A stretch of DNA of 64,000 nucleotides from a virus (IMGVR_UViG_3300047557_002876:1-64000); one strand, 5' to 3'; positions 6,727-22,904 are shown, numbered from the stretch's first letter. Numbers and translations are program-made. The notes: generated by a model not told the origin, from the letters alone.

Positions 6727-9700
6727 ATGGCAAAGTACATCAGCGGCAGACAGAAAAATTTTAAAATAGGTGTATCTTCTTTTAGTGAAAATTTAACATC
6801 ACTGGAAGTTATAGGTAAGGTTGGTATTGGGACAACTAATGCAACAACATCTTTAACTGTAATTGGTGATGTAAAAGTTGCTGGTGTAATTACTGCAAAT
6901 TCATTTTCTGGAGATGGATCTCAGTTAAGTAATCTTCCATCATCTAATTATTCTCCTAACGCTGGTGTAGCGACTTATGCAGTAAATGCTGGTATAACCA
7001 CAAATCTAAAAGGTGGTTCTGGTGGTTCTATACCATATCAGATCTCTGCTGATACAACTTCATTTATTGTAAATGGACCGTCTGGTTATGTTTTGCAATC
7101 TAATGGCGGAACAAATATACCAACTTGGGAAGCTGCTGCCCCTTCAAATGCAATTACTGGTCTTACCATAAGAGAAGAGGGTTTTATTGTTGGTTCTGCA
7201 AATAGTATATCTCAATTAGATTTTGTTGGACCAAACATAACTGCCACTGCTTCTGGGAATATTTCTACGGTAACTGTTGCCGATTATGTTTCTAATGCAG
7301 GAGTTGCAACTGGATTAACAACAACTTCTAATGTCAATACATCTGGTATTATTACTGCAGCATCATTTTCTGGATCTGGGGTAAATCTAACATCTTTAAA
7401 CGCCTCTAATTTATCTTCCGGTGTAGTTCCTTCTGATAGAATTACTGCATCTAGCGGAGATTTTACGGTAGGAAATGATCTTTATGTAAACGGCAATTTG
7501 AGTATTGGTGGTACTTCAGTTATACTGAATGCCGCCACTTTAGTTATTAATGATAAAGATATTGTTGTTGGTTATACTACAGATATTAATGGTAATGATG
7601 TTTCTAATGATGTAACTGCCAATCATGGTGGTATTTCTGTTGCATCGACAGTTGGATCTCCCATTATCAATATACCACTTCAAGTAGGTGTTAATAGTAG
7701 ACCTTCCACATATAAGCAAATAATGTGGATTAAGGAAGGTAATTACTCGGGAATGGGCACGGATGCTTGGGTATTTAATTATGCAGTTTCAATTGGTAAT
7801 ACCTCATCAGTCAAAAATAACAGCAGATTGACTGTTGGAACTGGGTTTACTGTATTTGATAATTATGTAGAATTGATAGATATTCGATCTAGAAATATTT
7901 TTAGTTCTGGTATTATAACAGCTTCTTCTTTTGATGGAAATTCTACTACAGCAACTTATGCTTCTAATGCTGGTGTAGCAACTTACGCTTCTAATGCTGG
8001 AATTTCTACGAGTGTTATTGGTGGAATTTCTTCAGTATCTCAACTTAGAGTATCTGGGATTTCTACATTGGGATTTGTAACTGCAACTAGTTTATATTCT
8101 GTTGGAGTTATCACTGCCTCATCTTTTGTTCCTTCTAGTGGATTTATTAAAGCCCCAGATGGAACTAATTCATTTTACATTTATGGTGGAACTGGAAATG
8201 TAGCATTCCAAGGAACAATAGGTGCTAGTAAAATTAATAATGCATCTGGTTATCTTGCAATTGATTTTTCTAGTTCTACTACTCCCACGGTTTTAGTTCC
8301 TAATAATCTTGGAGTCACTGGAATTGTTACAGTAAGTGATAAACTTGGTATAGGAACGACAGATCCAACATCAAAAATTCATGTTATTGGTGATGGTTTG
8401 TTTACGGGCATTATTACTGCTAACTCATTTAGTGGAAATGCGACAAGTGCCAATTATGCTCAGAATGCTGGCGTGGCAACTTATGCGTCTAACTCTGGAG
8501 TAGCGACCTACGCTTCAACTGCAGGTGTAGCAACAGGTTTAACAACCACTTCTAGTGTTAATACTACTGGCATTATTACTGCTTTAAGATTCATTGGAGA
8601 TGGATCTCAGTTAACAGGTCTCGTTGCTCCCAGTTCTGGAATTGGTATCAATTCTGATGGAATATCAGTTGGAGTTGCTGCAACAATACTTAACTTTTCT
8701 AGTGGTATTTTAGTAACTCCAATTTCCTCTGGTATTGCTACGATTTCTGTAATAACTGGTAATTATGCGTCCAATGCTGGAGTAGCAACTTATGCAGATT
8801 CGAGTGGCATTTCTACTTATGCTTCAACTGCAGGTGTAGCAACTTATGCGTCCAATGCTGGAGTAGCGACCTACGCTTCAACATCAGGTATTGCTACTTA
8901 TGCTTCAACTGCAGGTGTAGCAACCTATACACCTAATGCTGGAATAGCAACTTATGCAGATTCAAGTGGCATTTCTACTTATGCACCTAATGCTGGAGTA
9001 GCAACTTATGCAACTAGTGCTGGTATTGCTACTTATGCACCTAATGCTGGAGTAGCGACTTACGCTTCAACATCAGGTATTGCTACTTATGCTTCAACTG
9101 CAGGTGTAGCAACCTATACACCTAATGCTGGAATAGCAACCTATACACCTAATGCTGGAGTAGCAACCTATGCTTCAACATCAGGTATTGCTACTTATGC
9201 AACTAGTGCTGGAGTAGCGACCTACGCTTCAACATCAGGTATTGCTACTTATGCAACTAGTGCTGGTATTGCTACTTATGCACCCAATGCTGGTCTCTCT
9301 ACAGCACTTAAAAATTCAAGAACTTTTGAAATTACCGGGGATATCGTTGCATCACCAGTAAGTTTTGATGGAACTGGTAATGTATCTTTAGCGGCAACAA
9401 TTCAACCAAATTCTGTTGCTCTTGGTGGAGATACAACTGGAGATTACATCCAATCAATTTCTGGAACTGCAAATCAAATTACAGTAACTGGAGGAACTGG
9501 TGAAGGATCAACCCCTGTCATTTCTATTCCATCAAATCCAACATTACCTGGAAATGTAACAATTGCGAATGATCTTCAAGTCAATAATAATTTAAATGTA
9601 ACTGGAAATATTACTGTTGGAGGAACAACTGGTTATCTAATTGTTCAAGATTTTAAAGTCAGTGATGCTGATATTATTGTAGGATTTACTACCGATGCAT

Positions 9701-12030
9701 TTGGGCAAGATGTCTCTACTGATACTACTGCAAATCATGGTGGTATTGCTGTTGCATCTACTGAAGGTAGTCCATTAGTTGATCTTGTAAATGTTGCAAT
9801 TGGAGAAATAAATCCCACAACATATAAGAAAATTATGTGGTTCAAGTCTGGCGCTTTTGCCGGACTGAATACCGATGCTTGGTTATTTAATTATGGTGTT
9901 GGTATTGGAAGCACTCAATTTCCATCAGGGACAAGATTGGCAGCGGGGTCAGTTCAATTTACTGAAAATGATTTAGCAGTTGTAAGGAATATCAATGCTT
10001 CTGGCATTTCAACTTTGGGATCGGTTCAAATATCTTCTGGTATTGTCACCGCAACTTCTGGTGTTGTAACATATTATGGTGATGGATCTAAATTAACCGG
10101 AATAACTGTTGAATCTTTGGGTGCAATTAGTGGGATCACAGTTAGAGAAGAAAATTCTATTGTTGGAACTGCAGGAAGTATTTCCTCTATCAATTTTGTT
10201 GGTCCAAATGTTACTGCTACTGCAGCAGGTTCTGAAGCAACTATTACTATTGCAGATTATGTATCTTTAAGTGGAGTATCTACCTATGCTTCAACAGCAG
10301 GTGTAGCGACTTATGCACCTAATGCTGGAGTAGCAACTTATTCTGATACTGCAGGAGTATCTACAAGGGTTTCTGGTGGTACAGCATCAATTACTCAACT
10401 TAGTGTTTCTGGTGTTTCTACAGTTGGGTTATTAACAGCAACGAATATTGGTATAGGAACTGATAATGCATCTTCACCACTTTATGTTGTGGGTGATACA
10501 TTTATTACTGGAATTTTAACTGCAAATAGAATTTTCAGTAATGTTTATGGTGAGTTTACTGGAGGTGGTATTACTGGAACTGATATAGTTGGAACTGCAT
10601 TAAGTATTTCTGGAATTTCAACTTTTAGTAGCGGACCAGTATTAATTGGATCAGTAGCACAAACTGGAACCGTATCTCAATTGCTTCAGGTAACTGGTGG
10701 TGCTTATATTTCAACCAGTACTGGTATAGGAATCACTAATCCATCACAACTCTTACATGTTGAAGGTAACGCTAGAATTAGTGGCGCAATTTACGATTCT
10801 ACAAATTCTGCAGGAATTTCGGGGCAAGTTTTACAGTCAACTGAAACTGGTACGCAATGGACTACTCCTGCTAGTGGTGGTGGAAGTGGGATCGCTGCTA
10901 AATTTGATACAAATATTGATAATGTCTTTTATGTAACACCAACTGGCACACTAGATAGAGTTGGAGTTGGAACTACAACGACACAAATTACATCATTCCC
11001 TTCAACATCTGGTCTTGATTATATCGTTCATTCTATTCACGTAACTAACATATCGAATGGTGATGCTGAAATTACAGCAGCATTTGACCTTGATGCTTTA
11101 AAAGTTCCAGCAGTTGTAAGTGCTGGAACATCTGGTATTCATACTTGCAGAGTTTCAAGTGCAAGTAGTATTACCGTTGGCATGGCGTTTACAGGAACTA
11201 ATGTTGATTTTAATACACTAGTAACTGATGTTTCTGGAACTGTAATATTCTTAAGTAAACCTCTTCTTGGACCTATGTCTGGAACAGGATTCTTTACACC
11301 AGTATCGAAAGTTGTATCTAGACTTCCAGTTCCTGTTGGATCTGCTGTTGAAATAATGAAACAACCATTTGTTTTATACCCAAGTGACAGTGTTCGTGTA
11401 CAAGCGACTGGGTTAGGAACAGTTGGCGTTGCCCTTAGCACAACTGCATCTGCACCAGTTGGATTTGCAACAATTGGTGTTTCTACTTTTTCTGGAATCG
11501 CTGCGGGACAACTAGTTGTTGGATCTGGAATTGCTACAAATACTTACGTTGGTGTTGGTTATACGCCAGGTACATTGGTTGTACCGATCACTAAGGCAGT
11601 AAGATCTGCTTTAAGTGCTACTCCTGTTCAATTTATTGATGCAATTGTTCCTCAAGATGGTTCATTGCAGACTACAATTGTTTATCAGGCAACAACAGAT
11701 ACTGCATATTTAAATGGAAGTAGTAGAGGAGTTGGTGTTGGAACTACAGCAACAGTTTATTATGGGACTGGTAATACTTATCCTTCTGTGGTACAATCAA
11801 TTAGAGTTTCAAACATTAGTGATTCTGGTGATTATCCAGTTTGGGTTGGAATTGGAAACTCTGATACAATCTTTACCTACTTAGCCTATAACTTAATTGT
11901 TCCTAAAAATTCAACGATTGAATTATGTGAAGCACCAAAACGATTAGGAATAGGTCAATCAATTTTTGCATTCTCAGATACATTAAACTCAATAGAAATA
12001 CAAATCGCAGGAAAACAAAAGATTCAATAA
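6727..12030 (+). CDS. Giant repeat-rich tail fibre, 1767 aa
   Basis: A fibrous protein dominated by short G-x-A-T-Y-A and G-I-I-T-A units. It contains GVGIGTT/LDV-type modules, two related segments with GLTIREEGFIVGSANSISQL and GITVREENSIVGTAGSISS, one copy of the IPYQ...LQSNGG unit that is expanded in its paralog at 46257, and a 19-copy array of 9-residue repeats at 8779-9291. The last 350 residues are non-repetitive and beta-rich, likely a globular tip. Unlike the paralog, no S74 auto-cleaving chaperone is found at its end. It follows the 113-aa gene by one base and is presumably a trimeric long fibre. Confidence 0.78.
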   Translation: MAKYISGRQKNFKIGVSSFSENLTSLEVIGKVGIGTTNATTSLTVIGDVKVAGVITANSFSGDGSQLSNLPSSNYSPNAGVATYAVNAGITTNLKGGSGGSIPYQISADTTSFIVNGPSGYVLQSNGGTNIPTWEAAAPSNAITGLTIREEGFIVGSANSISQLDFVGPNITATASGNISTVTVADYVSNAGVATGLTTTSNVNTSGIITAASFSGSGVNLTSLNASNLSSGVVPSDRITASSGDFTVGNDLYVNGNLSIGGTSVILNAATLVINDKDIVVGYTTDINGNDVSNDVTANHGGISVASTVGSPIINIPLQVGVNSRPSTYKQIMWIKEGNYSGMGTDAWVFNYAVSIGNTSSVKNNSRLTVGTGFTVFDNYVELIDIRSRNIFSSGIITASSFDGNSTTATYASNAGVATYASNAGISTSVIGGISSVSQLRVSGISTLGFVTATSLYSVGVITASSFVPSSGFIKAPDGTNSFYIYGGTGNVAFQGTIGASKINNASGYLAIDFSSSTTPTVLVPNNLGVTGIVTVSDKLGIGTTDPTSKIHVIGDGLFTGIITANSFSGNATSANYAQNAGVATYASNSGVATYASTAGVATGLTTTSSVNTTGIITALRFIGDGSQLTGLVAPSSGIGINSDGISVGVAATILNFSSGILVTPISSGIATISVITGNYASNAGVATYADSSGISTYASTAGVATYASNAGVATYASTSGIATYASTAGVATYTPNAGIATYADSSGISTYAPNAGVATYATSAGIATYAPNAGVATYASTSGIATYASTAGVATYTPNAGIATYTPNAGVATYASTSGIATYATSAGVATYASTSGIATYATSAGIATYAPNAGLSTALKNSRTFEITGDIVASPVSFDGTGNVSLAATIQPNSVALGGDTTGDYIQSISGTANQITVTGGTGEGSTPVISIPSNPTLPGNVTIANDLQVNNNLNVTGNITVGGTTGYLIVQDFKVSDADIIVGFTTDAFGQDVSTDTTANHGGIAVASTEGSPLVDLVNVAIGEINPTTYKKIMWFKSGAFAGLNTDAWLFNYGVGIGSTQFPSGTRLAAGSVQFTENDLAVVRNINASGISTLGSVQISSGIVTATSGVVTYYGDGSKLTGITVESLGAISGITVREENSIVGTAGSISSINFVGPNVTATAAGSEATITIADYVSLSGVSTYASTAGVATYAPNAGVATYSDTAGVSTRVSGGTASITQLSVSGVSTVGLLTATNIGIGTDNASSPLYVVGDTFITGILTANRIFSNVYGEFTGGGITGTDIVGTALSISGISTFSSGPVLIGSVAQTGTVSQLLQVTGGAYISTSTGIGITNPSQLLHVEGNARISGAIYDSTNSAGISGQVLQSTETGTQWTTPASGGGSGIAAKFDTNIDNVFYVTPTGTLDRVGVGTTTTQITSFPSTSGLDYIVHSIHVTNISNGDAEITAAFDLDALKVPAVVSAGTSGIHTCRVSSASSITVGMAFTGTNVDFNTLVTDVSGTVIFLSKPLLGPMSGTGFFTPVSKVVSRLPVPVGSAVEIMKQPFVLYPSDSVRVQATGLGTVGVALSTTASAPVGFATIGVSTFSGIAAGQLVVGSGIATNTYVGVGYTPGTLVVPITKAVRSALSATPVQFIDAIVPQDGSLQTTIVYQATTDTAYLNGSSRGVGVGTTATVYYGTGNTYPSVVQSIRVSNISDSGDYPVWVGIGNSDTIFTYLAYNLIVPKNSTIELCEAPKRLGIGQSIFAFSDTLNSIEIQIAGKQKIQ
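8779..9291 (+). repeat. 27-bp in-frame tandem repeat, 19 units
   Basis: Nineteen consecutive 9-codon units of the type G-[VI]-[AS]-T-Y-[AT]-x-x-[AS]. Several neighbouring units are almost identical at DNA level (for example the GTATTGCTACTTATGC core), which suggests recent slippage or unequal recombination that would change fibre length. Confidence 0.9.
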
Positions 12031-12032
12031 TT

Positions 12033-12686
12033 ATGAGTATTCTTATATCATTACCTTGTTATGGTGGTTTGGTTAGTGAAAAAACTTCAACTTCACTATT
12101 CAATCTAGGTAAACTTTTGGTTCGTAATAACATTGATCATGGTATTATGACTGTTGCTAATGAATCCATGATCTCAAAAGGTAGATCAAGAATTGCAAAT
12201 TTCTTCATGAATAATACTGAGTTTGAGTATTTGTTTTGTTTGGATGCTGATGTTGCATTTCGGGCAGAAGATGTATTGAAGTTATATTCATATCAAAAAC
12301 CAATAGTATCTGCCGCATATCCAATGAAAACAATTCCATTAAGGTATTGTTATGATGTATGCAATCCAATAAAATTGTGCGGCAATCTAATTAAAATTGG
12401 TGGAATAGGTATGGGATTTGTGATGATTCATAGAAGTGTCTTTGCTAAACTAAATAAGTATTATAGTGAACTGAAATATTTTCCTTCATTAAATAATTCA
12501 AATTATCCAATTACAGAAAAAGAATACGATAATTCATATCATTACTTTGCAGAAATGTGTGAAAATGGCAAGTATCTGGGAGAGGATATGAGTTTCTTTA
12601 AAAGACTTAATGAAGTTGGATATGATGTTTGGTTAGATACAAGTATAGAATTACAACATATCGGTTCTCACGTATTCGGTAAATAA
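12033..12686 (+). CDS. Glycosyltransferase, GT-A (family 2-like)
   Basis: 217 residues starting MSILISLPCYGGLVSE, a typical GT-A opening. NESMISKGRSRIANFF follows, then LDADVAF (residues 70-76) as the DxD metal/nucleotide-sugar motif, and later GEDMSFFKRL, which is usual in the acceptor half of such enzymes. No membrane segment is seen, so it should act in the cytoplasm. It starts 2 bases after the giant fibre gene and ends 1 base before the first propeller-like gene. A role in glycosylating fibre proteins is inferred from this position; host-surface targets are the alternative. Confidence 0.78.
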   Translation: MSILISLPCYGGLVSEKTSTSLFNLGKLLVRNNIDHGIMTVANESMISKGRSRIANFFMNNTEFEYLFCLDADVAFRAEDVLKLYSYQKPIVSAAYPMKTIPLRYCYDVCNPIKLCGNLIKIGGIGMGFVMIHRSVFAKLNKYYSELKYFPSLNNSNYPITEKEYDNSYHYFAEMCENGKYLGEDMSFFKRLNEVGYDVWLDTSIELQHIGSHVFGK

Positions 12687-12687
12687 A

Positions 12688-14547
12688 ATGGCGACAGGGG
12701 TATTTGGTTTAGGTCAAACTTATAACTTAAAAAGAACTGAAACTTATACCACTTTAAATTCTTATGGTTGGTTTGGTGCTGGAAGAGTTCTTTCTACTCC
12801 TACACCTATATCACATTCTACGGTTGATCGTATAGATTTTTCTAATGATTCTTCAACAACATCGCCAAGAGGTTCATTAAGTTCAGCAAGATACAGTTTG
12901 GCAGCAACTGGAAATTCTAACTATGGATGGTTTGGTGGTGGCAGAACTAATGCAGTATTTTTTTCAACAGTAGATCGTATTGATTTTTCAAATGATTCTA
13001 CGACCGCATCAGTTAGAGGACCATTGAGTTTAGCAAAAGATGGTTCAGGAGCAGTAAAAAATTCTAACTATGGGTGGTTTGGTGCTGGTGGTGTATCAGC
13101 AGCAGTAATATCGACAGTAGATCGTATTGATTTTTCAAATGATCTAACAACTGCACCATTAAGAGGATTTTTAAGTATTTCAAGAACTCCTCCCGCAGCA
13201 ACTGGCAACTCTAACTATGGATGGTTTGCTGGTGGAAGTGCGCCAGTATCAACAGTAGATCGCATTGATTTTTCAAATGATTTTACGACCGCATCAGTTA
13301 GAGGACCATTAAGTTCAGCAAGAGGTGGTTCAGGAGCAACTGGCAACTCTAACTATGGATGGTTTGGTGGTGGACTTCCCGGTCCAGTGTCAACAGTAGA
13401 TCGTATTGATTTTTCAAATGATTTGGCAACTGCATTAGTTAGAGGACCATTAAGTTTAGCAAAAAATGCTCCAAGAAGTTCTGGGAATACTAATTATGGT
13501 TGGTTTGGTGGCGGAAATACTCCTGGTCCAGTAGTATTGTCCACAGTAGATCGTATTGATTTTTCAAATGATTTGGCAACTGCATCAGTTAGAGGTTCAT
13601 TAAGTTTAAGTAGAGATTTTTCTTCGTCTACATCTGGACAAGCAAAACCCCCAAGTATTCTTCCACAAGCGTCAGGTAATTTTGGTTGGTTTGGTGGTGG
13701 TTATTATCTTATTCCTCCATCTTCGATATTTTATTATGCTGTAGTTGATCGAATTAATTTTTCTAATGATCTAGCGTCAGCATCTCTAAGAGGGTCTTTA
13801 TCATTTGGAAGAGGAGGAACTGCTGCATCTAGTAATAAAAATTATGGTTGGTGGAGCGGAGGTAATGCAGCACCTGGAACTTCTAATTTAGTTGATAGAG
13901 TAGACTTTTCAAATGATACCCGAACAGCGATTCCTAGGGGAAGACTCATATCACCAAAAACTTACATTTTTTCAACTTCAAATGCAAATTATAATTGGAT
14001 TTCTGGAGGTTCTTCATCAAATACTGTAGTAGAAAGAATAGATTTTTCCAATGATAACGTTACATCATCAAGAAGGGGAAATTTATCTACATCTAGAGCT
14101 AGATTATCGGCAACAGGAAATTCTGACTATGGTTGGTTTGGTGGAGGAACATCAAGTTCTAGAGTAGATAGACTAGATTTTTCTAATGATAGTTCAATAG
14201 CATCGGTTAGAGGTAACTTATCTGTTAATAGAGATTGGTCTGCTGCTACAGGAAACTCTAATTATGGTTGGTGGTGTGGTGGAACTACACGTTCATCAAT
14301 AGATCGTATAGATTTTTCTAATGATTCTGCAACAGCATTACTAAGAGGAATAATGCCATCTATTCGATATTCTCATGGAGGGACTTCGGACAAAAATTAT
14401 GCTTGGTGGGGCGGAGGTTATACTACTGTTTATACCAGTAGCGTAGTAAAAAGTAATTTTTCCAATGACTTAGCGACAGCTGCATCAAGATCTATACTAT
14501 CTCAGATTAGATCTAGACTGTCTGCTTGTTCTAATGCAATAAAATAA
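12688..14547 (+). CDS. Kelch-like 12-repeat fibre protein (6+6), 619 aa
   Basis: After a short start (MATGVFGLGQTY) the protein is built of twelve repeats of about 45-50 residues: NYGWFGGG, variable loop, STVDRIDFSND, then TASVRGPLSxAR and a GNS link. Repeats 1-6 are followed by a unique linker (SGQAKPPSILPQASG) and then repeats 7-12. Aromatic-plus-glycine strands and a regular repeat resemble Kelch beta-propeller blades, so two six-bladed propellers is the natural model. First of three paralogs (also 16010 and 19670). Likely a virion surface or receptor-binding protein. The family name is inferred from pattern only. Confidence 0.75.
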   Translation: MATGVFGLGQTYNLKRTETYTTLNSYGWFGAGRVLSTPTPISHSTVDRIDFSNDSSTTSPRGSLSSARYSLAATGNSNYGWFGGGRTNAVFFSTVDRIDFSNDSTTASVRGPLSLAKDGSGAVKNSNYGWFGAGGVSAAVISTVDRIDFSNDLTTAPLRGFLSISRTPPAATGNSNYGWFAGGSAPVSTVDRIDFSNDFTTASVRGPLSSARGGSGATGNSNYGWFGGGLPGPVSTVDRIDFSNDLATALVRGPLSLAKNAPRSSGNTNYGWFGGGNTPGPVVLSTVDRIDFSNDLATASVRGSLSLSRDFSSSTSGQAKPPSILPQASGNFGWFGGGYYLIPPSSIFYYAVVDRINFSNDLASASLRGSLSFGRGGTAASSNKNYGWWSGGNAAPGTSNLVDRVDFSNDTRTAIPRGRLISPKTYIFSTSNANYNWISGGSSSNTVVERIDFSNDNVTSSRRGNLSTSRARLSATGNSDYGWFGGGTSSSRVDRLDFSNDSSIASVRGNLSVNRDWSAATGNSNYGWWCGGTTRSSIDRIDFSNDSATALLRGIMPSIRYSHGGTSDKNYAWWGGGYTTVYTSSVVKSNFSNDLATAASRSILSQIRSRLSACSNAIK

Positions 14548-14550
14548 ATA
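14543..14550 (+). promoter_or_regulatory. Late promoter box (AATAAATA)
   Basis: The box overlaps the stop of the first propeller-like gene and lies 20 bases upstream of the dioxygenase-like gene at 14571. Confidence 0.45.
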
Positions 14551-14570
14551 ATTGAAATTAGATTATTTTT

Positions 14571-15182
14571 ATGAGGCAAAATATTATCATTGTTGATAAC
14601 TTTTATGAAAACCCATATGAAGTTCGTCAATATGCACTAAATCTAGAGTATCCACAACCTGAAGATGGGTATACTTATCCCGGAAGAAATTCAAAAGGAA
14701 CATTTTATAACAAAGAAATTCATAATAAGTTTGAACTGCTTTTAGGAAGATCTCTTATTCCTGCACAAGAGGGAAATCATGGCGACTTTAGGTTGTCATT
14801 GGAGAATGATACATTTCAGCAAGATATTCATATTGATCCAATCTGGGACTGGGGCTGCGTTCTTTATATGAATCTACCAAACCAATGTATTCCTGAAGCA
14901 GGAACATCTTTCTGGAGGCATAAAAAACTTGGTTGGGAAAGATGCCCTGAACATCACGAAGCAAGTTGGTTTGGTTATACCTCTTATGATGAGATAAGGG
15001 AAGGTATTGTATATGGTGATGGTTTAGATCGTTCTAAGTGGGATAGGTATTGTCTTGCAAATATGCAGTATAATAGAGCAGTAATATTTGATCCAAAACT
15101 TTGGCACTCTCATGGAGAAAACTTTGGAGATTGTTTAGAGAATGGTAGACTAGTTCAGTTATTCTTTTTTACGAATGGATAA
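14571..15182 (+). CDS. Fe(II)/2-oxoglutarate dioxygenase-like protein (DUF6445-like)
   Basis: 203 residues. An iron-binding H87-x-D89 (QDIHIDP) is followed by VLYMNLPN, AGTSFWRHKKLGW, and a distal histidine in WHSHGENF (H179 or H181) with R193 as the likely 2-oxoglutarate contact. This is the facial-triad layout of double-stranded beta-helix dioxygenases and resembles the DUF6445 group. The substrate is unknown. Its gene lies between two propeller-like fibre genes and overlaps the sulfotransferase gene by 8 bases, so the two products probably act together. Protein side-chain hydroxylation is an inference. Confidence 0.72.
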   Translation: MRQNIIIVDNFYENPYEVRQYALNLEYPQPEDGYTYPGRNSKGTFYNKEIHNKFELLLGRSLIPAQEGNHGDFRLSLENDTFQQDIHIDPIWDWGCVLYMNLPNQCIPEAGTSFWRHKKLGWERCPEHHEASWFGYTSYDEIREGIVYGDGLDRSKWDRYCLANMQYNRAVIFDPKLWHSHGENFGDCLENGRLVQLFFFTNG

Positions 15183-16005
15183 AGTATATTTTTTTGAGAG
15201 TGGATTACCTCGTTCTGGTTCTACTTTACTATCTGCGATTTTAAATCAAAATCCAGATATTCATTGTGGTGCTATATCCCCTGTATTGGAGATTATGTAT
15301 TATACTGAACAGTATTTTGGGACGTCAGAGCAAGCACTTGCATACCCAAAACCAAAACAGCATCATAAAATTATTTCAAGCGTAATTGATAATTATTATA
15401 GTGATATTGATAAACCGATTGTGATTGATAAATGTCGTGCTTGGCCTAATAACATTGATAGAATACAAGAATATATCACAAAAACACCGAAGATTCTTTG
15501 TCCAGTAAGAGATGTATTAGAAATTCTTGCATCTTTTATTCAGATGATTCATCGTAATCCAAACCAATTATCTTTTGTAGATAAAGTACTTAAAGATCGT
15601 GGGTATGAATTAAATGATGATAATCGATGTGATTATTTAATGTGTCCTGAAGGAATTGTAGATCAATCTTTATATGCTTTTAGTCAAGGATTTGAAAAGG
15701 GTTGTGGAAGATATATGCATTTGATTGAATATAATGATCTAGTGTATCGACCAGAAGAAACTTTTAGAAAAATATATCAATTTTTAGAATTGCCTTATTA
15801 TCAGCATGATTTTGATAATGTGGATCATAAATACCGTGAGAGAGATAATGAAGTTTATGGTTTGAGTGATATGCATCAAGTTCATAAACAAGTCAAAAAA
15901 ACTTGTCGAAAACCAGAAGAAATTTTAAGTGATTATATATTGAACAAATATTCCAATATGGAATTTTGGAGACAACCAAAACAACCCATTCAATTATTCA
16001 TTTAA
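15175..16005 (+). CDS. PAPS-dependent sulfotransferase-like protein
   Basis: 276 residues with the P-loop-like 5'-phosphosulfate-binding motif GLPRSGSTLL at residues 10-19, followed by SAILNQNPDIHCG. A middle VRDVLEILASF region fits the 3'-phosphate-binding segment, and ETFRKIYQFLELPYYQHDF is typical of the C-terminal half of sulfotransferases. Such enzymes move sulfate from PAPS to hydroxyl groups on tyrosine, sugars or small molecules. No signal peptide is seen, so it acts in the cytoplasm. Overlap with the upstream dioxygenase gene suggests coupled translation. The target could be a hydroxylated or glycosylated fibre protein; this is inference. Confidence 0.82.
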   Translation: MDKVYFFESGLPRSGSTLLSAILNQNPDIHCGAISPVLEIMYYTEQYFGTSEQALAYPKPKQHHKIISSVIDNYYSDIDKPIVIDKCRAWPNNIDRIQEYITKTPKILCPVRDVLEILASFIQMIHRNPNQLSFVDKVLKDRGYELNDDNRCDYLMCPEGIVDQSLYAFSQGFEKGCGRYMHLIEYNDLVYRPEETFRKIYQFLELPYYQHDFDNVDHKYRERDNEVYGLSDMHQVHKQVKKTCRKPEEILSDYILNKYSNMEFWRQPKQPIQLFI

Positions 16006-16009
16006 GTAA

Positions 16010-17920
16010 ATGCCTGTAGGAAATAATAGTGTATTTGGAGTATTTGGTTTAAATGAAGTTCGATCTGCGAGAGTGCAGAATGTATGGTTAAATAAAGAAT
16101 CAGTTGCAAATCATGGTTGGTTTGGTGGTGGTCTTACTCCAACACCAGCAAATGTATCAACTATAGACCGTATAGATTTCTCTAATGATTCCGTAACAGC
16201 GCAATCAAGGGGTTTATTAAGTTCAATAAACCGAAGCATGGCAGCAACAGGAAACTCTAACTATGGGTGGTTTGGTGGTGGATTTCCTTCAGTATCGACA
16301 GTAGATCGTATAGATTTTTCTAATGATTCTGCAACAGCAACCCCAAGAGGTTCATTAACTTTAGCAAAAGCTGATTTAGCAGCAACAGGAAATTTCAATT
16401 ATGGTTGGTTTTGTGGTGGTTCTATTGCAACTCCTGCAGTAGTATCGGCAGTTGATCGCATAGATTTTTCTAATGACTCTACAATAGCATTATCTAGAGG
16501 TCTATCAAGTTTAGCAAGAGAAAGATTTGCAGCAACTGGTAATTCCAACTATGGTTGGTTTGGTGGTGGATATGTGGCACCTACTGTTTATTCGACAGTA
16601 GATCGTGTGGATTTTTCAAATGATTCTGCAATAGCATCACCAAGAAGTCCATTAAGTTTGGCAAGGCAAAAATCTACGGCAACTGGTAATTCTAACTATG
16701 GTTGGTTTGGTGGAGGTCTTATACCTGGTCCCGCAGCAACAGAAACAGTAGACCGTATTGATTTTTCTAATGATTTAGTAACAGCATCTGTTAGAGGTTC
16801 ATTGGTATCCGCAAAAGCAACTGCAGCAGCAACTGGTAATTCTGACTATGGATGGTTTGGTGGAGCAGAATTTCCAGCAGCAACATCGGCAATAGACCGC
16901 ATAGATTTTTCTAGTGATTTAGTAGCAGCATCTCCAAGAGGTTTATTATTTACTGCAAGAGGAAATTTAGCAGCAACTTCAGGCGTTCTTAATATTCGTA
17001 GACAAAAAGGTGGAAATTTTGGTTGGTTTGTTGGTGGAGGTTCTAATCCAGGAACTGGATTAATAGCAACAAATAGAATAGATCGTATTGATTTTTCCAA
17101 TGATTCTATAACTGCTTCTACGAGAACTAATTTTACTTCGAGTAGATTAACGATGGCATCTACCGGAAACTTTGATTATGGTTGGTTTAGTGGTGGACAT
17201 AGTGGATCTAGTCCCGCTTCAACGTCTCAGGTTGTTAGACTAAATTTTAATAATGATTCCGCTTCTGCTTTAGTTAGAGGACCTCTAATAGATAATAGAT
17301 ATGGTGCCGCTGCCACTGGAAATTCTAATTATGGATGGGTGGGACAAGGCGCAAAAGACCCGAGCACAGTATCTACAGTTTATCGTATTGATTTTTCAAA
17401 TGATCTTACGGCAACTTCTCTAAGAGGACCTCTAGCAAATACTTATTTTATGGTTTCCGCAACAGGTAATTCTAATTATGGGTGGTGGGGAACTGGTGCA
17501 TCTGGTGGGGTTACAAGATCCACTATTGATCGTATGAATTTTTCAAATGACCTCGCAGCTTCATCAGTGAGATCTCCTGTTTCAGCAACAAATAAAGCGG
17601 CTGCGACTGGAAACTCTAATTATGGATGGTGGGCAGGAGGTTATTCTGGAGGGTTCTTACGATCTGTAAGTAGGATAAATTTTTCTAACGACCTCAGTGC
17701 ATTTTCTCCAAGAGCATTTTTATCGACATTTAAAAGTGCTCATAGTGCCACTGGTAATTCTAACTATGGATGGTTTGGTGGTGGTTACTTTAGTTCATTT
17801 ACAATGTATTCTATAGTCGATAGAATTAATTTTTCAAATGATAGTTCAACTGCAACTACTAGAGGAGTTTTAAGTGCAGCTAGATATAGTTCTTCTGCAG
17901 CATCAAATACAATAAGATAA
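16010..17920 (+). CDS. Kelch-like 12-repeat fibre protein (6+6), 636 aa
   Basis: Second paralog of the NYGWFGGG...VDRIDFSND family. After VFGVFGLNEVRS it again has six repeats, a unique linker (SGVLNIRRQKGG) and six more repeats, ending AASNTIR. Repeats in the first half are closest to consensus; in the second half the STVDRIDF strand drifts (for example QVVRLNFNND, RSVSRINFSND). It starts 4 bases after the sulfotransferase gene. The conserved glycine/tryptophan framework with variable 5-15 residue loops suggests a fixed scaffold with diversified surface loops. Confidence 0.75.
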   Translation: MPVGNNSVFGVFGLNEVRSARVQNVWLNKESVANHGWFGGGLTPTPANVSTIDRIDFSNDSVTAQSRGLLSSINRSMAATGNSNYGWFGGGFPSVSTVDRIDFSNDSATATPRGSLTLAKADLAATGNFNYGWFCGGSIATPAVVSAVDRIDFSNDSTIALSRGLSSLARERFAATGNSNYGWFGGGYVAPTVYSTVDRVDFSNDSAIASPRSPLSLARQKSTATGNSNYGWFGGGLIPGPAATETVDRIDFSNDLVTASVRGSLVSAKATAAATGNSDYGWFGGAEFPAATSAIDRIDFSSDLVAASPRGLLFTARGNLAATSGVLNIRRQKGGNFGWFVGGGSNPGTGLIATNRIDRIDFSNDSITASTRTNFTSSRLTMASTGNFDYGWFSGGHSGSSPASTSQVVRLNFNNDSASALVRGPLIDNRYGAAATGNSNYGWVGQGAKDPSTVSTVYRIDFSNDLTATSLRGPLANTYFMVSATGNSNYGWWGTGASGGVTRSTIDRMNFSNDLAASSVRSPVSATNKAAATGNSNYGWWAGGYSGGFLRSVSRINFSNDLSAFSPRAFLSTFKSAHSATGNSNYGWFGGGYFSSFTMYSIVDRINFSNDSSTATTRGVLSAARYSSSAASNTIR

Positions 17921-17924
17921 AATT

Positions 17925-19658
17925 ATGAAATCAGGAGCAAGTGAAAGTTCTTATTATTTTCTTGAGGAATATTATAAATTTCCAGAAAATATTATAGTTT
18001 CTCATTTACCACAAGAACTTCAACAATCAAATAAACAATTTAAGGTTTTATGGACTCAGCATTCATATGATCAACCTCATTATGTAAATTTTGACTTTTC
18101 AATTTGTGATTTAATTGTATCTCCATCAAACTGGTGTCGAGAACAATTTATTCATTATCATCAAATTCCAGAAGATAAAATTGTCGTAATTCCAACTGGA
18201 GTATCAAAAAAATTTACTTACTCTATTAAAAAATCAAAAACTTTTATATACACTTCGATCCCATACAAGGGTTTGGAAGTTTTAGCACAAATTATTCCTC
18301 ACGTTCCAGAAGCAACATTTAAGATTTTTTCTGCAATGAATCTATATGATATTGCAGAAGATCCATACACTGAACTTTATGAGTATCTCAAATCACTTCC
18401 AAATGTGATTTATTCGCCAGCAGTGGATCAAGAGGAACTTATTGAGCATTTACAAGATGCTGCATTTTTTATTCACCCAAACATCTGGGAAGAAACATTC
18501 TGCGTTTCTCTTGCAGAGGCAATGGCATGTGGTTGCTACCCTATTATTACTGATATCGGTGCAATACCTGAAGTGTCAAATGAGATTGCAACCATAGTGC
18601 CAATGGAAGGAATAAGAACCACCAAAGGTTATGAAGTTACTGATAACTTCCTAAATAACCTTATAAGTGCCTGCAAGTCAGTATTATATTTTTTTGATAA
18701 TGACAGGCAATATTATGATCAAATTTCACAATCAGTTTCAAATTATGCAACTGAAACTTATGATTGGAAAAAAATTGCAAACGTTTGGAAACAAACATTA
18801 GATCCATTCACTAAAAAGACTATGACTGAAAACTGTAATCAATTGCAAATTGTTACTCCAGAAGAAGCAGTTAATAACGAAGAATATCTTCAACAAGCAT
18901 TTAAGGAAGTTCTTCGTTGGGAAGAAGCAGATAAAGAACTGGCACAAGGAAGAACTAATTTTCAAATTGAGAAGTTTTTCCTTTTAGAGCAATATACAGT
19001 TCCTGCAGCTTTTCAAGCAGCAATTAAGAATCGTCGTATTCTTGCTGAGGGGTATATGACTAAACTTATTGAGATGAAAGAAAGAGTTCGTGAATTTGAA
19101 TATCGTTGGGAAGGAAAAGACAAATCAAAACCAGTTGAATGGCATACTTCAGGTCCTAATGGTTCTTCAACAAAACTTTATTGGTATGATTTGGATTCAT
19201 TATCTCTTCAAAATTATCTAAAATCGTGCGAACTTGAAATTCGTGATCGTATTCAACAAATGAATTTCTTTGATAAGATCATCAATAAACTCATTGAACT
19301 TAATGGCGGTAAGACAGTTACTCGTGAACAATTTGAAGCAGAAGATCATGTTTATTGGGAAAGAAGATTTGCAGAGCAATCTTTAGATGAAATGATTAGT
19401 TCTAAAACTGGTATCAGTATTGGCAATTTACATTCGATGAGAAGAGGAACTGCTCCAACTTTGGTAAGTGATGATACTAATCGTATTAAGAATGGATATG
19501 GTTCTCTTGCAGATGCTCTTAATGATCCAGACAGATTCTTAAATACTTTACAAGAAAAAGTTCTTCGTGGTATTGAAGAAGTTACAAATACCGATCTTGG
19601 TCTAATTGCCCCTGGAACTGAACAACATCAACAACTTTTAGAAACCAGAAATCCATAA
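17925..19658 (+). CDS. Glycosyltransferase (GT4-like) fused to an unknown C-terminal domain
   Basis: 577 residues in two parts. Residues 1 to about 290 look like a GT-B glycosyltransferase of family 4 type: VSPSNWCREQF, VIPTGVSKKF, IYTSIPYKGLEVL, and the E190-x7-E198 donor-binding element in EETFCVSLAEAMACGCYP. From about residue 300 (an internal ATG at 18822) a charged helical region begins (EEVLRWEEADKELA-like stretch, QIEKFFLLEQYTVPAAF, then IRDRIQQMNFFDKIINKL). I do not recognise it as a known fold. There is no frameshift between the parts. It lies between two propeller-like genes; the C-terminal part may bind the virion or dock the enzyme. Confidence 0.75.
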   Translation: MKSGASESSYYFLEEYYKFPENIIVSHLPQELQQSNKQFKVLWTQHSYDQPHYVNFDFSICDLIVSPSNWCREQFIHYHQIPEDKIVVIPTGVSKKFTYSIKKSKTFIYTSIPYKGLEVLAQIIPHVPEATFKIFSAMNLYDIAEDPYTELYEYLKSLPNVIYSPAVDQEELIEHLQDAAFFIHPNIWEETFCVSLAEAMACGCYPIITDIGAIPEVSNEIATIVPMEGIRTTKGYEVTDNFLNNLISACKSVLYFFDNDRQYYDQISQSVSNYATETYDWKKIANVWKQTLDPFTKKTMTENCNQLQIVTPEEAVNNEEYLQQAFKEVLRWEEADKELAQGRTNFQIEKFFLLEQYTVPAAFQAAIKNRRILAEGYMTKLIEMKERVREFEYRWEGKDKSKPVEWHTSGPNGSSTKLYWYDLDSLSLQNYLKSCELEIRDRIQQMNFFDKIINKLIELNGGKTVTREQFEAEDHVYWERRFAEQSLDEMISSKTGISIGNLHSMRRGTAPTLVSDDTNRIKNGYGSLADALNDPDRFLNTLQEKVLRGIEEVTNTDLGLIAPGTEQHQQLLETRNP

Positions 19659-19669
19659 GGAGAAAGTAG

Positions 19670-21937
19670 ATGCCGGGAGATGTATTTGGACTTGATGGGA
19701 TTTATTTCAGTAAATCAAATCCTGTTACAGTTTCTACTATACAAATTAATCAGGCAACTTCTGGCGCTGGTATTGCGATTACGGGTGCAACTTTAGACAC
19801 CTCTGTAGGAATTGCAACTCTTACACTTTCTTCTGCTGCTGGACTTTCAACGACACCTTTTTATGTAGGTTCTAAAATTGCAGTTTCAGGTCTTGGAGAT
19901 GCCACTGGAACTGCATACACTGGTTATAATGGCACTTTTATTGTCACTGGATTTGCAGGAACTACAACAGTTTCTTATGCAACGACTGGATATTTGGGTT
20001 CTGTTACTCCAGGTATTACGACAACTGGTTTAGTAATGTTAGTGACTGATAGTCCTGTTACTAGCACAACTTGGAGTAGTTCTCAAACTCATGGTTGGTT
20101 TGGTGGAGGATCACCTCCCTCACCAAGCCCCAATTCATCTTCAATAGATCGTATAGATTTTTCTAATGATTCTATATCAGTATCATCAAGAAGTTCATTT
20201 AGTGCAGTAAAAGGTAGTTCCGGAGCAACAGGAAATTCTAACTATGGATGGTTTGGTGGTGGTGCTTCTACAGTAACAATATCAACAGTAGATCGTGTAA
20301 ATTTTTCTAATGATCTTACTTCTCCCATATCTAGGGGACCATTAAGTTCAACAAGAAGTAGTTTAGGGGCAACAGGAAATTCTAACTACGGTTGGTTTGG
20401 TAGTGGCAATTCTATTATTGGATTACAATCAACAGTAGATCGTATAGATTTTTCTAATGATTCTGCAACTGCATCAGTTAGAGGTCAATTAACCTTATCA
20501 AAATGGAATGTCCAATCAGCAGGAAATATAAATTATGGTTGGTTTGCTGGTGGTAATATACCTCCTCTTAACTCAATATCTACTGTAGATCGTATAGATT
20601 TTTCTAATGATTCTTCAACATCATCTGTTAGAGGATCATTAAGCTCCGCTAAAGAATCTATTGGTGCAGCAGGAAACTATGACTATGGTTGGTTTGGTGC
20701 AGGTGTAAGATTTCCAACTCCAGCAGTACAGTTATCAACCGTAGATCGTATAAATTTTTCCAATGATTTGACAACTGCATTGGTCAGAGGTCCTTTAAGT
20801 TCTACCAGATATGGTTTAGGGGCGACTGGAAATTTTAATTATGGTTGGTTTGGTGGCGGAACGACAGGCACTCCAAGATTATCAACAGTAGATCGTATAG
20901 ATTTCTCTAATGATTCCGTAACTGCATCAATTAGAGGTTCATTAAGTGAATCTAAATGGGCTACGGCAGCGACATCTGGACAAGCAAAGTCTTCTAGTAT
21001 TCTTAACCAACAAACAGGTAATTTTGGTTGGTTTGGAGGTGGAGGATCTTTCCCTGGAGTAGCAACATCTGCAGTTTCAAGAATAAACTTTTCTAATGAT
21101 TCTGTAACTGCATCCCCAAGAGGACCGTTAAGTTCGTCAAAATTTACCATGGCTGCATCCAGCAATTCTGCTTATGGGTGGTTTAATGGGGGAGTATCAA
21201 CCTTTCCTGGCACTACCCTGAGCACGACGGATCGTATAAATTTTTCTAACGATTCTGTGGCAATGATCACCAGAACTGCACTTAGACTTAGATCTCGGTT
21301 TGCTTCAGTTGGAAACTCTAATTATGGTTGGTTTGGTGGGGGATTTATTTCCCCTGCAGTAACTTCAATAGTAGATCGTATAAATTTTTCCGATGATTCT
21401 ATGGTTAATTTGCTTAAAGGACCTTTATCGTTAGCAAGAAGAAATTTAGCGGCAACAGGAAACTCTAACTATGGTTGGTTTGGTGGCGGATATATTAGCA
21501 GTGTAAACAGGGTATCATTAATAGATCGTGTAGATTTTTCTAATGATTTTTTGACTGCATCAACAAGAGGTTCATTAAGTTCACAAATATATGACTTAGC
21601 AGCAACAGGAAATTCTAATTATGGTTGGTGGTGTGGAGGTGTAGGTCCTGGAGGGGTATTTCAATCCACAGTAGAACGTTCTGATTTCTCTAATGACTCT
21701 GCATCTACATCTATTAGGGGACCATTAAGTACAGCACGAATTACTTTTGCTGGAACCGGCAACTCTAACTATGGTTGGTTTGGTGGAGGTTATACTCCGG
21801 CTACGCCTAGTACTACCACAAGAAGTTCAGTTGATAGAATAAATTTTTCTAATGATTTAGTTGCAGCAATTCCCAGAGGAACTTTGCATTACAGTCCATT
21901 AAGTAAACCAACGGCAACTTCAAATACTACAAGATAA
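19670..21937 (+). CDS. Kelch-like 12-repeat fibre protein with extra N-terminal domain, 755 aa
   Basis: Third paralog. A clear AGGAG-type ribosome-binding site (AAGGAGAAAG) precedes ATG 19670. It shares the DVFGLDGIYF start, then has an added domain of about 110 residues of beta sequence (SAAGLSTTPFYVGSKIAV..., GYNGTFIVTGFAGTTTVSYA) not found in the other two. Twelve repeats follow, six on each side of a linker (SGQAKSSSILNQQTG) very close to that of the first paralog. Some repeats vary (SDDSMVNLLKG, NDSVAMITRTA). Probably a virion protein. The insert resembles short beta domains in other fibre proteins of this phage. Confidence 0.75.
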   Translation: MPGDVFGLDGIYFSKSNPVTVSTIQINQATSGAGIAITGATLDTSVGIATLTLSSAAGLSTTPFYVGSKIAVSGLGDATGTAYTGYNGTFIVTGFAGTTTVSYATTGYLGSVTPGITTTGLVMLVTDSPVTSTTWSSSQTHGWFGGGSPPSPSPNSSSIDRIDFSNDSISVSSRSSFSAVKGSSGATGNSNYGWFGGGASTVTISTVDRVNFSNDLTSPISRGPLSSTRSSLGATGNSNYGWFGSGNSIIGLQSTVDRIDFSNDSATASVRGQLTLSKWNVQSAGNINYGWFAGGNIPPLNSISTVDRIDFSNDSSTSSVRGSLSSAKESIGAAGNYDYGWFGAGVRFPTPAVQLSTVDRINFSNDLTTALVRGPLSSTRYGLGATGNFNYGWFGGGTTGTPRLSTVDRIDFSNDSVTASIRGSLSESKWATAATSGQAKSSSILNQQTGNFGWFGGGGSFPGVATSAVSRINFSNDSVTASPRGPLSSSKFTMAASSNSAYGWFNGGVSTFPGTTLSTTDRINFSNDSVAMITRTALRLRSRFASVGNSNYGWFGGGFISPAVTSIVDRINFSDDSMVNLLKGPLSLARRNLAATGNSNYGWFGGGYISSVNRVSLIDRVDFSNDFLTASTRGSLSSQIYDLAATGNSNYGWWCGGVGPGGVFQSTVERSDFSNDSASTSIRGPLSTARITFAGTGNSNYGWFGGGYTPATPSTTTRSSVDRINFSNDLVAAIPRGTLHYSPLSKPTATSNTTR

Positions 21938-21940
21938 ATA
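21933..21940 (+). promoter_or_regulatory. Late promoter box (GATAAATA)
   Basis: GATAAATA overlaps the stop of the third propeller-like gene and lies 21 bases before the oxygenase start at 21962. Confidence 0.5.
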
Positions 21941-21961
21941 TCTAAAAATACATTATTCAAA

Positions 21962-22612
21962 ATGAATTTATTATCAAATATTTTGATTGCCCCAAAAGTC
22001 ATCAGTCCAGAAGGAATTGATGCTTTGGTTCATCATATGAAAACGTCAAAGACAGAAGATCTTTCAGTATTTGACCCAGACAAATCCAATCAAACTAGAC
22101 AGACTGAATGGATTACTGATAAGAAGACTAGAGATACTCAAATTGCACCAATTGAACCTGTGTTTCCTCAGGTCAATGAATTAATGCATAACATTGTAAA
22201 GCAGGTTATTAACCCGTTTTATCAGTTTGAGGTTGATAGTAGTGAGGTTCCACAACTACTTTGCTATGGTGTAGGGGGTCATTACCAACCCCACATTGAT
22301 GGTGAAGGTATGTGGACTGCTCCAGATCAAACTCAGGTGTGGAGAAAAACCATAGATCGAGATTTGTCTATGGTCTTATATTTGAATGATGATTTTGAAG
22401 GCGGTGATTTTGTATTTCCAAATCTTCATATTCGTATTCGCCCAGAACCTGGTCTTTTAGTTTGCTTCCCCTCAAACAGATATTATCTACATGGAGTTGA
22501 ACCTGTAACTAAAGGTGATAGGTATTCTATGGTAACTTGGATGACTGTTAAAGGATTTGAGAGCATGGAAACTCAATGCAATAATCTCAAATCTAAATAT
22601 GGAGTCTGCTAA
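21962..22612 (+). CDS. 2OG-Fe(II) oxygenase, prolyl-4-hydroxylase type
   Basis: 216 residues with the full set of P4H-type ligands: H111-x-D113 (HYQPHIDGE), distal H177 (YYLHGVEPV) and R187 (KGDRYSMVTW), plus YLNDDFEGGDFVFP between them. These enzymes hydroxylate protein side chains, often proline, using 2-oxoglutarate and oxygen. No signal peptide is seen. It closes the cluster of modification enzymes and propeller-like proteins. Phage P4H-like genes are common in cyanophages, but the substrate is unproven. Fibre proteins made from the same late transcripts are the inferred target. Confidence 0.88.
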   Translation: MNLLSNILIAPKVISPEGIDALVHHMKTSKTEDLSVFDPDKSNQTRQTEWITDKKTRDTQIAPIEPVFPQVNELMHNIVKQVINPFYQFEVDSSEVPQLLCYGVGGHYQPHIDGEGMWTAPDQTQVWRKTIDRDLSMVLYLNDDFEGGDFVFPNLHIRIRPEPGLLVCFPSNRYYLHGVEPVTKGDRYSMVTWMTVKGFESMETQCNNLKSKYGVC

Positions 22613-22640: not shown

Positions 22641-22904
22641 ATGTACATCAAGCACTATTGGGTAATTTATCCAAGTTTAGATAGATTTTTAATTGAAGCA
22701 AACGAAGTTCCTAAAACTCATCCGCCAATCAAAGGTTTAGATGTTAAATACTGGTTGACGGATGATAATGGAGTTGATTATTGTTTATCTGTCTGTGATG
22801 ATGATGCAGTTCTTCCTGGAGGAAATGGTGTAACTCAACTAACAGAAGAAGAATGGATTACTCTTACAACTCCACTCATTGAATCTTCTCAAGAAAATAC
22901 TTGA
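22641..22904 (+). CDS. Hypothetical protein, 87 aa
   Basis: Acidic protein beginning MYIKHYWVIYPSLDRFLIEA with a middle GLDVKYWLTDDNGVDYCLS and ending in LTEEEWITLTTPLIESSQ. Two cysteines, no obvious metal site and no membrane segment. It has its own late box and is followed by another promoter region. Not recognised as a named family. Confidence 0.65.
   Translation: MYIKHYWVIYPSLDRFLIEANEVPKTHPPIKGLDVKYWLTDDNGVDYCLSVCDDDAVLPGGNGVTQLTEEEWITLTTPLIESSQENT

Follow-up and report, generated by a model that had tools for sequence, protein, structure and literature searches.

A phage gene cassette predicted to modify its own kelch-propeller adhesins

Why would a phage interleave enzymes for hydroxylation, glycosylation, and sulfation with genes for repeat proteins, and do these enzymes act on the proteins encoded beside them? 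The question is raised by positions 12,033 to 22,612 of a 64,000-nucleotide (nt) stretch of viral DNA (IMGVR_UViG_3300047557_002876:1-64000; hereafter, the window), which comes from a 71-kb cyanomyophage contig that also carries psbA and T4-like genes. Here, three propeller genes alternate with genes for two glycosyltransferases (GT-A and GT-B types), a DUF6445 dioxygenase, a sulfotransferase, and a prolyl-4-hydroxylase-like (P4H) oxygenase. We consider it likely that the locus is a protein-modification cassette acting on the phage's own kelch-propeller adhesins, with hydroxyproline predicted as the first modification. The propellers are favored as the substrate because proline in their loops tracks the hydroxylase gene, and because the helical domain fused to GT-B belongs to a family that, in other loci, is encoded separately next to propeller genes. 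The cassette consists of the following genes and domains (aa, amino acids; 2OG, 2-oxoglutarate; PAPS, 3'-phosphoadenosine-5'-phosphosulfate):

12033..12686, + strand: GT-A type glycosyltransferase (217 aa), core enzyme; DxD at 12243-12251
12688..14547, + strand: propeller 1 (619 aa); 12 kelch repeats, equal to two six-bladed propellers
14571..15182, + strand: DUF6445 2OG-Fe(II)-type dioxygenase (203 aa), optional member; HxD at 14829-14837, H at 15105-15107, R at 15147-15149
15175..16005, + strand: PAPS-type sulfotransferase (276 aa), optional member; PAPS loop at 15202-15228
16010..17920, + strand: propeller 2 (636 aa); 12 kelch repeats, inter-propeller hinge at 16991-17011
17925..19658, + strand: GT-B fusion gene, whole
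17925..18824, + strand: GT4-type GT-B domain of the fusion; EX7E glutamates at 18492-18494 and 18516-18518
18825..19658, + strand: long-helix C-terminal domain of the fusion; remote phrog_1409 family
19670..21937, + strand: propeller 3 (755 aa); N-terminal extension of ~130 residues and 12 kelch repeats
21962..22612, + strand: P4H-like 2OG-Fe(II) oxygenase (216 aa), core enzyme; HxD at 22292-22300, H at 22490-22492, R at 22520-22522

Open reading frame (ORF) calls placed all eight genes on the plus strand, in the order and at the coordinates described in an earlier, sequence-only reading of the window. That reading also described short gaps, which we measured at 1-24 nt, and several overlaps between enzyme genes, of which we found one (8 nt, dioxygenase and sulfotransferase). 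The arrangement cannot be attributed to chance because dozens of independent viral contigs carry the same set.

To quantify this association, we scanned IMG/VR with the enzymes, independently of the propeller query, across more than 70 virus groups. Close forms were taken as those with at least 50% identity for GT-A, at least 45% for GT-B, P4H, and DUF6445, and ~46% or more for the sulfotransferase. For all five enzymes, a propeller was encoded at the locus, in most cases no more than 50 bases away, in every virus group with a close form and enough flanking sequence. With GT-A, a propeller was present in 47 of 50 virus groups, and the three exceptions had less than 3 kb of flanking sequence on a side. 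The proposal that a single pathway serves the propellers therefore survived a search for its enzymes without propellers: given enough contig, cassette-type enzymes always accompanied them. GT-A, GT-B, and P4H occurred together in 24 of 26 cassettes with both ends visible; the two lacking the full core were on a contig that starts inside the cassette (L034) and in a distant relative (L166). P4H was present in nine of 11 whole contigs queried, all of at least 40 kb, and the two without it were fragments of 7 and 14 kb. GT-A, GT-B, and P4H are thus the core of the cassette, and the sulfotransferase and DUF6445 are optional. The core set was found in more than 40 virus groups and is therefore not rare, whereas the sequence-only reading supposed an uncommon phage pathway.

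Among relatives, the gene order is widely shuffled with the set retained, and GT-B is encoded as one gene or two. The hypervariability of adhesin regions raises the prospect that the enzymes are unrelated morons that hitch-hiked into a recombination-prone region. We regard this as highly improbable, as the enzymes are under strong purifying selection and the same core is kept through many rearrangements, from 85-93% down to ~50% identity.

What reactions might these enzymes catalyze? Judged from sequence, the catalytic motifs of all five are intact, and none looks degenerate. GT-A had no Pfam match; its assignment to the GT-A family is based on the DxD motif, with aspartates D71 and D73 invariant in 31 relatives, and on a family-profile match to the solved GT-A protein STIV A197 (2c0n, E = 1.2e-7). 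The ratio of nonsynonymous to synonymous substitution rates (dN/dS) for this gene was 0.08. The GT-B fusion matched GT4 (Glycos_transf_1) in Pfam (PF13692 and PF00534), its EX7E glutamates E190 and E198 are invariant, and the structure model agrees with a GT4-type GT-B enzyme. In the dioxygenase (PF20043, 2.5e-11), the residues H87, D89, H179, and R193 of the HxD...H...R motif are invariant in 24 relatives; no solved relative of the DUF6445 family was found. The sulfotransferase (Sulfotransfer_3, PF13469, 5e-14) has an invariant 5'-phosphosulfate-binding loop (GLPRxGSTL) and invariant 3'-phosphate-binding residues R112 and S120, and in a single-sequence search of the PDB, all matches at E ≤ 0.1 were protein-tyrosine sulfotransferases (TPSTs). 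P4H (2OG-FeII_Oxy_3, PF13640, 1e-17) retains the HxD...H iron triad and the basic 2OG residue (H111, D113, H177, and R187, invariant in 23 sequences), has a dN/dS of 0.03-0.04, and falls in PHROG 61. Its nearest solved relatives are bacterial P4H (1e-8), prolyl 3-hydroxylase 1, and PKHD-type enzymes. Based on these relatives and, indirectly, on the loop-proline correlation described below, we predict that it is a protein prolyl hydroxylase.

Enzymes of these families could instead target polysaccharide of the host surface or small molecules, sharing a locus with adhesins only through host range. Phage glycosyltransferases are able to alter host surfaces, and distant relatives of the sulfotransferase (<45% identity) are found where this propeller family is absent. 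Indeed, the sulfotransferase is the least specific part of the cassette because its more distant forms are common without these propellers. However, the most constant member of the set is a prolyl hydroxylase, and cassette-type enzymes were never found apart from propellers. Neither the loop-proline correlation nor the fusion of a glycosyltransferase to a helical domain is expected for a host-surface target, and we consider this explanation very unlikely.

If the propellers are the substrate, where on them would modification fall? Propellers 1-3 each comprise 12 repeats of ~49 residues, and their family profile matches six-bladed kelch proteins in the PDB, namely designed SAKe6, KLHL12, and KEAP1. 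In the AlphaFold model of propeller 2 (mean predicted local distance difference test score of 80; 41 sequences), each blade is built of four strands, and repeats 6 and 7 are joined by a low-confidence linker. When compared using Foldseek with solved six-bladed kelch structures, the model gave target template modeling scores of 0.86-0.91 over one propeller. The cassette propellers thus have the ~50-residue repeats with a GG motif, four strands per blade, and six blades of this fold. The repeat number was a multiple of six (6, 12, 18, 24, 30, or 36) in 134 of 164 distinct complete relatives, and these proteins are therefore chains of one to six complete propellers. The fold and blade motif are common to the KLHL12 and KEAP1 kelch domains and to phage kelch proteins, but the cassette proteins differ from these in their tandem arrays and in the extreme variation of the b-c/d-a face. 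A scan of bacterial genomes for the propeller yielded no relatives.

This variation is concentrated in two sets of loops. Between close relatives, identity was 0.78-0.82 in strands a-c, compared with 0.29 in b-c loops and 0.28 in d-a loops. In KEAP1-type kelch domains, the b-c and d-a loop sets form the ligand-binding face. The dN/dS of the propellers was 0.34-0.46 (0.39-0.46 for propeller 1) versus 0.03-0.10 for the enzymes. The propellers are therefore evolving fast, mostly in the b-c and d-a loops, and the enzymes are under strong purifying selection.

The b-c loops are also rich in proline. In cassette propellers, 76% of b-c loops contain at least one proline, which makes up 12% of loop residues. 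For comparison, we used a separate phage kelch family, with seven loci that carry a P4H-like gene and six that do not (downstream genes visible). The P4H-like gene in the seven loci differs from that of the cassette and lies downstream of the kelch gene. Proline was present in 74% of 186 loops at these loci, accounting for 8-12% of loop residues per locus. Where no P4H was seen, it was present in 19.5% of 77 loops and accounted for 0-3.7% of loop residues per locus. In a whole-record search, the comparison-family P4H was found in the four P4H-positive records tested and in none of the other records tested. The relationship is not strict, because the cassette loci poorest in loop proline (L082 and L261) still carry P4H. 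Conservation of loop proline at specific blades gave no signal in the few sequences available.

Alternatively, loop proline could be a structural habit of kelch b-c turns, with the link to P4H due to shared ancestry; the cassette would then modify other residues, by Ser/Thr glycosylation or Tyr sulfation, or P4H would have another protein target. The cassette b-c loops are rich in serine (16%) and threonine (15%), the sulfotransferase resembles TPSTs, proline-rich loops occur in some kelch proteins with no visible P4H (L309), and P4H persists in the two loci lowest in loop proline. Nevertheless, kelch proteins of the same family that lack P4H are almost free of loop proline, and we judge this explanation to be rather unlikely. 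The sequence-only reading proposed Ser, Thr, Asn, and Asp as acceptors, for which we found no specific support; proline in the b-c loops is better supported as the first target. Separately, Glu and Asp were lower in the b-c loops of cassettes with a sulfotransferase, as if sulfate supplied charge (P = 0.005 and 0.04, uncorrected for 16 tests in a small sample); we do not rely on this difference.

A second link between enzymes and propellers comes from the GT-B fusion. Its C-terminal half was modeled as long helices (residues 319-352, 359-395, 421-459, and 467-495), and in many relatives this domain is a separate gene. The phrog_1409 profile matched the C-terminal domain (1.3e-4), the separate gene of Synechococcus phage S-SKS1 (5e-5), and helical proteins encoded on their own next to kelch or fibre genes (7e-13, 4e-11, and 2e-76). 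In the distant relative L166, a 198-aa stand-alone protein adjoining a kelch gene and a sulfotransferase was matched both by the GT-B C-terminal profile (5e-9) and by the stand-alone family profile (4e-9). A viral fold search with the GT-B fusion returned only glycosyltransferases and the S-SKS1 stand-alone helical protein. These matches provide moderate evidence that the fusion joins a glycosyltransferase to what is normally a companion protein of the adhesin, and we propose that the domain is a propeller-binding adaptor.

Members of this helical family are also found beside other fibres, which bears on whether the enzymes modify tail fibres, or another virion protein, in place of the propellers. 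Directly upstream of GT-A lies the following gene:

6727..12030, + strand: large tail-fibre protein (1767 aa); PHROG baseplate wedge / tail fibre matches

This fibre family directly precedes GT-A in most relatives, and the protein is a probable structural partner of the cassette products. In cyanophages P-HM2, Syn19, and S-ShM2, a stand-alone phrog_1409 protein adjoins a tail fibre and a "sericin-like" gene, and four 2OG-oxygenase-type genes come next in S-ShM2; stand-alone helical proteins and 2OG oxygenases likewise lie beside collagen-like fibres on contig L297. However, the cassette enzymes are interleaved with propellers and kept with them in every order, whereas the fibre is replaced or moved, and it is the loop proline of the propellers that tracks P4H. 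We therefore think a tail-fibre target improbable.

The S-ShM2 locus (L328:4508-10387) and those on L327 and L326 are a simpler version in ordinary cyanophages (tail fibre, sericin-like protein, and stand-alone phrog_1409 protein) and may represent a general cyanophage adhesin-modification locus. Within it, L328:9031-9747 (SShM2_041, PHROG 1644 "minor coat protein") resembles a DUF6445 dioxygenase, and its annotation is probably an error that has spread. On L297:403-12552, genes for collagen-like fibres with GPQ repeats precede those for several 2OG oxygenases, for glycosyltransferases, and for a helical protein that matches the stand-alone family; the fibres are possibly hydroxylated. A second, separately built cassette (L312, L313, L315-L318, and L323) encodes 12-repeat kelch proteins, a helical protein of ~280 aa, a protein of ~100 aa, and 2OG-FeII_Oxy_5 and P4H-like oxygenases.

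Taking the propellers as the substrate, a sequence of steps can be proposed. The P4H-like enzyme would hydroxylate prolines in the hypervariable b-c loops of the ligand-binding face. GT-A would place a first sugar on hydroxyproline or on nearby Ser/Thr, and GT-B, anchored to the propeller via its long-helix domain, would add a second. In many relatives, the DUF6445 dioxygenase and TPST-like sulfotransferase would contribute additional hydroxyls and sulfate. Attached to the tail-fibre apparatus, the propellers would present a variable, decorated face for host recognition or adhesin protection, and the decoration may serve shielding, stability, or receptor tuning.

Several observations weigh against this proposal. 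The view of the propellers as virion proteins draws on their neighbors and on phage kelch proteins annotated as virion structural proteins. The P4H genes of the seven comparison loci are closely related and probably of one lineage, so that P values overstate independence; the comparison therefore amounts to one strong contrast plus the cassette family, rather than seven independent cases. On contig L309, loop proline is high and no P4H was seen, although the contig stops shortly past the kelch gene. When the profiles of the GT-B C-terminal domain and the stand-alone helical family were compared directly, the score was weak (probability of 3.5%, E = 0.012), and the two are linked through bridging proteins; the fusion is therefore moderate evidence. 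For the sulfotransferase acceptor, neither loop Pro nor loop Tyr changed significantly with the presence of the sulfotransferase or DUF6445, and the loops are poor in Asp/Glu, even though the nearest structures are TPSTs. Lastly, the S-SKS1 record contains propellers, the helical protein, the sulfotransferase, and P4H but no GT-A or GT-B glycosyltransferase domain, and stops inside the cassette.

The cassette as a whole is a co-directional run between the tail-fibre gene and early genes, and a further gene follows P4H:

22641..22904, + strand: small conserved protein (87 aa), directly 3' of P4H

Homologues of this protein lie directly 3' of P4H in 59 of 62 cases, across 40 groups, which suggests that it is likely a cassette member. 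The T4-like late-promoter word TATAAATA was no more frequent than expected by chance, and none preceded the cassette. A DNA-level search among named phages gave no match. Several variants of the cassette were also seen. P4H is split over two ORFs in the S-SKS1 record (L009:6226-6887). L047 and L048 carry a short form (GT-A, one six-bladed propeller, and P4H), which could reflect deletion of the middle or an assembly collapse at repeats. Distant cassettes have an extra gene of 160-196 aa between DUF6445 and the sulfotransferase (L036:6532-7014, L037:8559-9149, L080:11268-11762, and L261:4796-5293). L186 has five P4H-like genes on one contig, plus a distant sulfotransferase and a GT-A homologue.

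If the proposal is correct, phages make hydroxylated, glycosylated, and sulfated adhesins in which a fast-evolving recognition face is paired with a conserved decoration machine. Viruses of prokaryotes would then have their own counterpart of hydroxyproline glycosylation, and the cassette would offer a source of new enzymes. More broadly, we tentatively suggest a viral multi-step pathway of prolyl hydroxylation, hydroxyproline glycosylation, and sulfation for hypervariable kelch adhesins, in which loops could vary freely if proline were kept, so that one conserved enzyme set would decorate any variant; a core of kelch protein, phrog_1409 protein, and 2OG oxygenase may then be a general phage strategy, including in ordinary cyanophages. 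We hold this wider view as possible, a little short of probable.

How does the locus compare with known systems? S-SKS1 and the single-cell viruses AG-345-L05 and AG-345-O18 carry propellers, sulfotransferase, and P4H, as here (AG-345-L05 has the full set), at 40-55% identity to the present locus, and have gone unrecognized as a system. The 2OG-Fe(II) oxygenases of PHROG 61, which resemble human EGLN3/prolyl hydroxylases, are numerous in phages of marine bacteria, and the available excerpt of that study proposes no substrate (PMC12774648). For cyanophage oxygenases, the roles guessed at are nitrogen sensing or DNA repair (PMC3037559). In contrast, a candidate substrate is encoded next door here, and the locus thus offers a concrete candidate protein for one large subset of phage 2OG-Fe(II) oxygenases. 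Our search of the open-access literature, which covered phage prolyl hydroxylases, sulfotransferases, and hydroxyproline together with tail fibres, found no description of such a system. Phage-encoded glycosyltransferases of mycobacteriophages act on virion proteins (Freeman et al. 2023, as cited in PMC12619734), at the C-termini of capsid and tail-tube proteins; the excerpted text of PMC12619734 reports no prolyl hydroxylase, sulfotransferase, or interleaved adhesins. The cassette would likewise modify virion proteins and, should hydroxyproline glycosylation be confirmed, may well prove to be a new type of system. Functionally, it comes nearest to the Skp1 pathway of the protists Dictyostelium and Toxoplasma, in which a cytoplasmic prolyl 4-hydroxylase acts first and glycosyltransferases then assemble a glycan on the hydroxyproline of one protein (PMC3515798, PMC11570480). 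The likeness lies in P4H plus glycosyltransferases for one substrate, seen here as gene association with predicted chemistry. Whereas the Skp1 pathway is eukaryotic, has a conserved intracellular substrate, and serves oxygen sensing, the present system is phage-borne, has a chemistry predicted from its genes, and pairs its enzymes, including an optional sulfotransferase, with hypervariable propellers.

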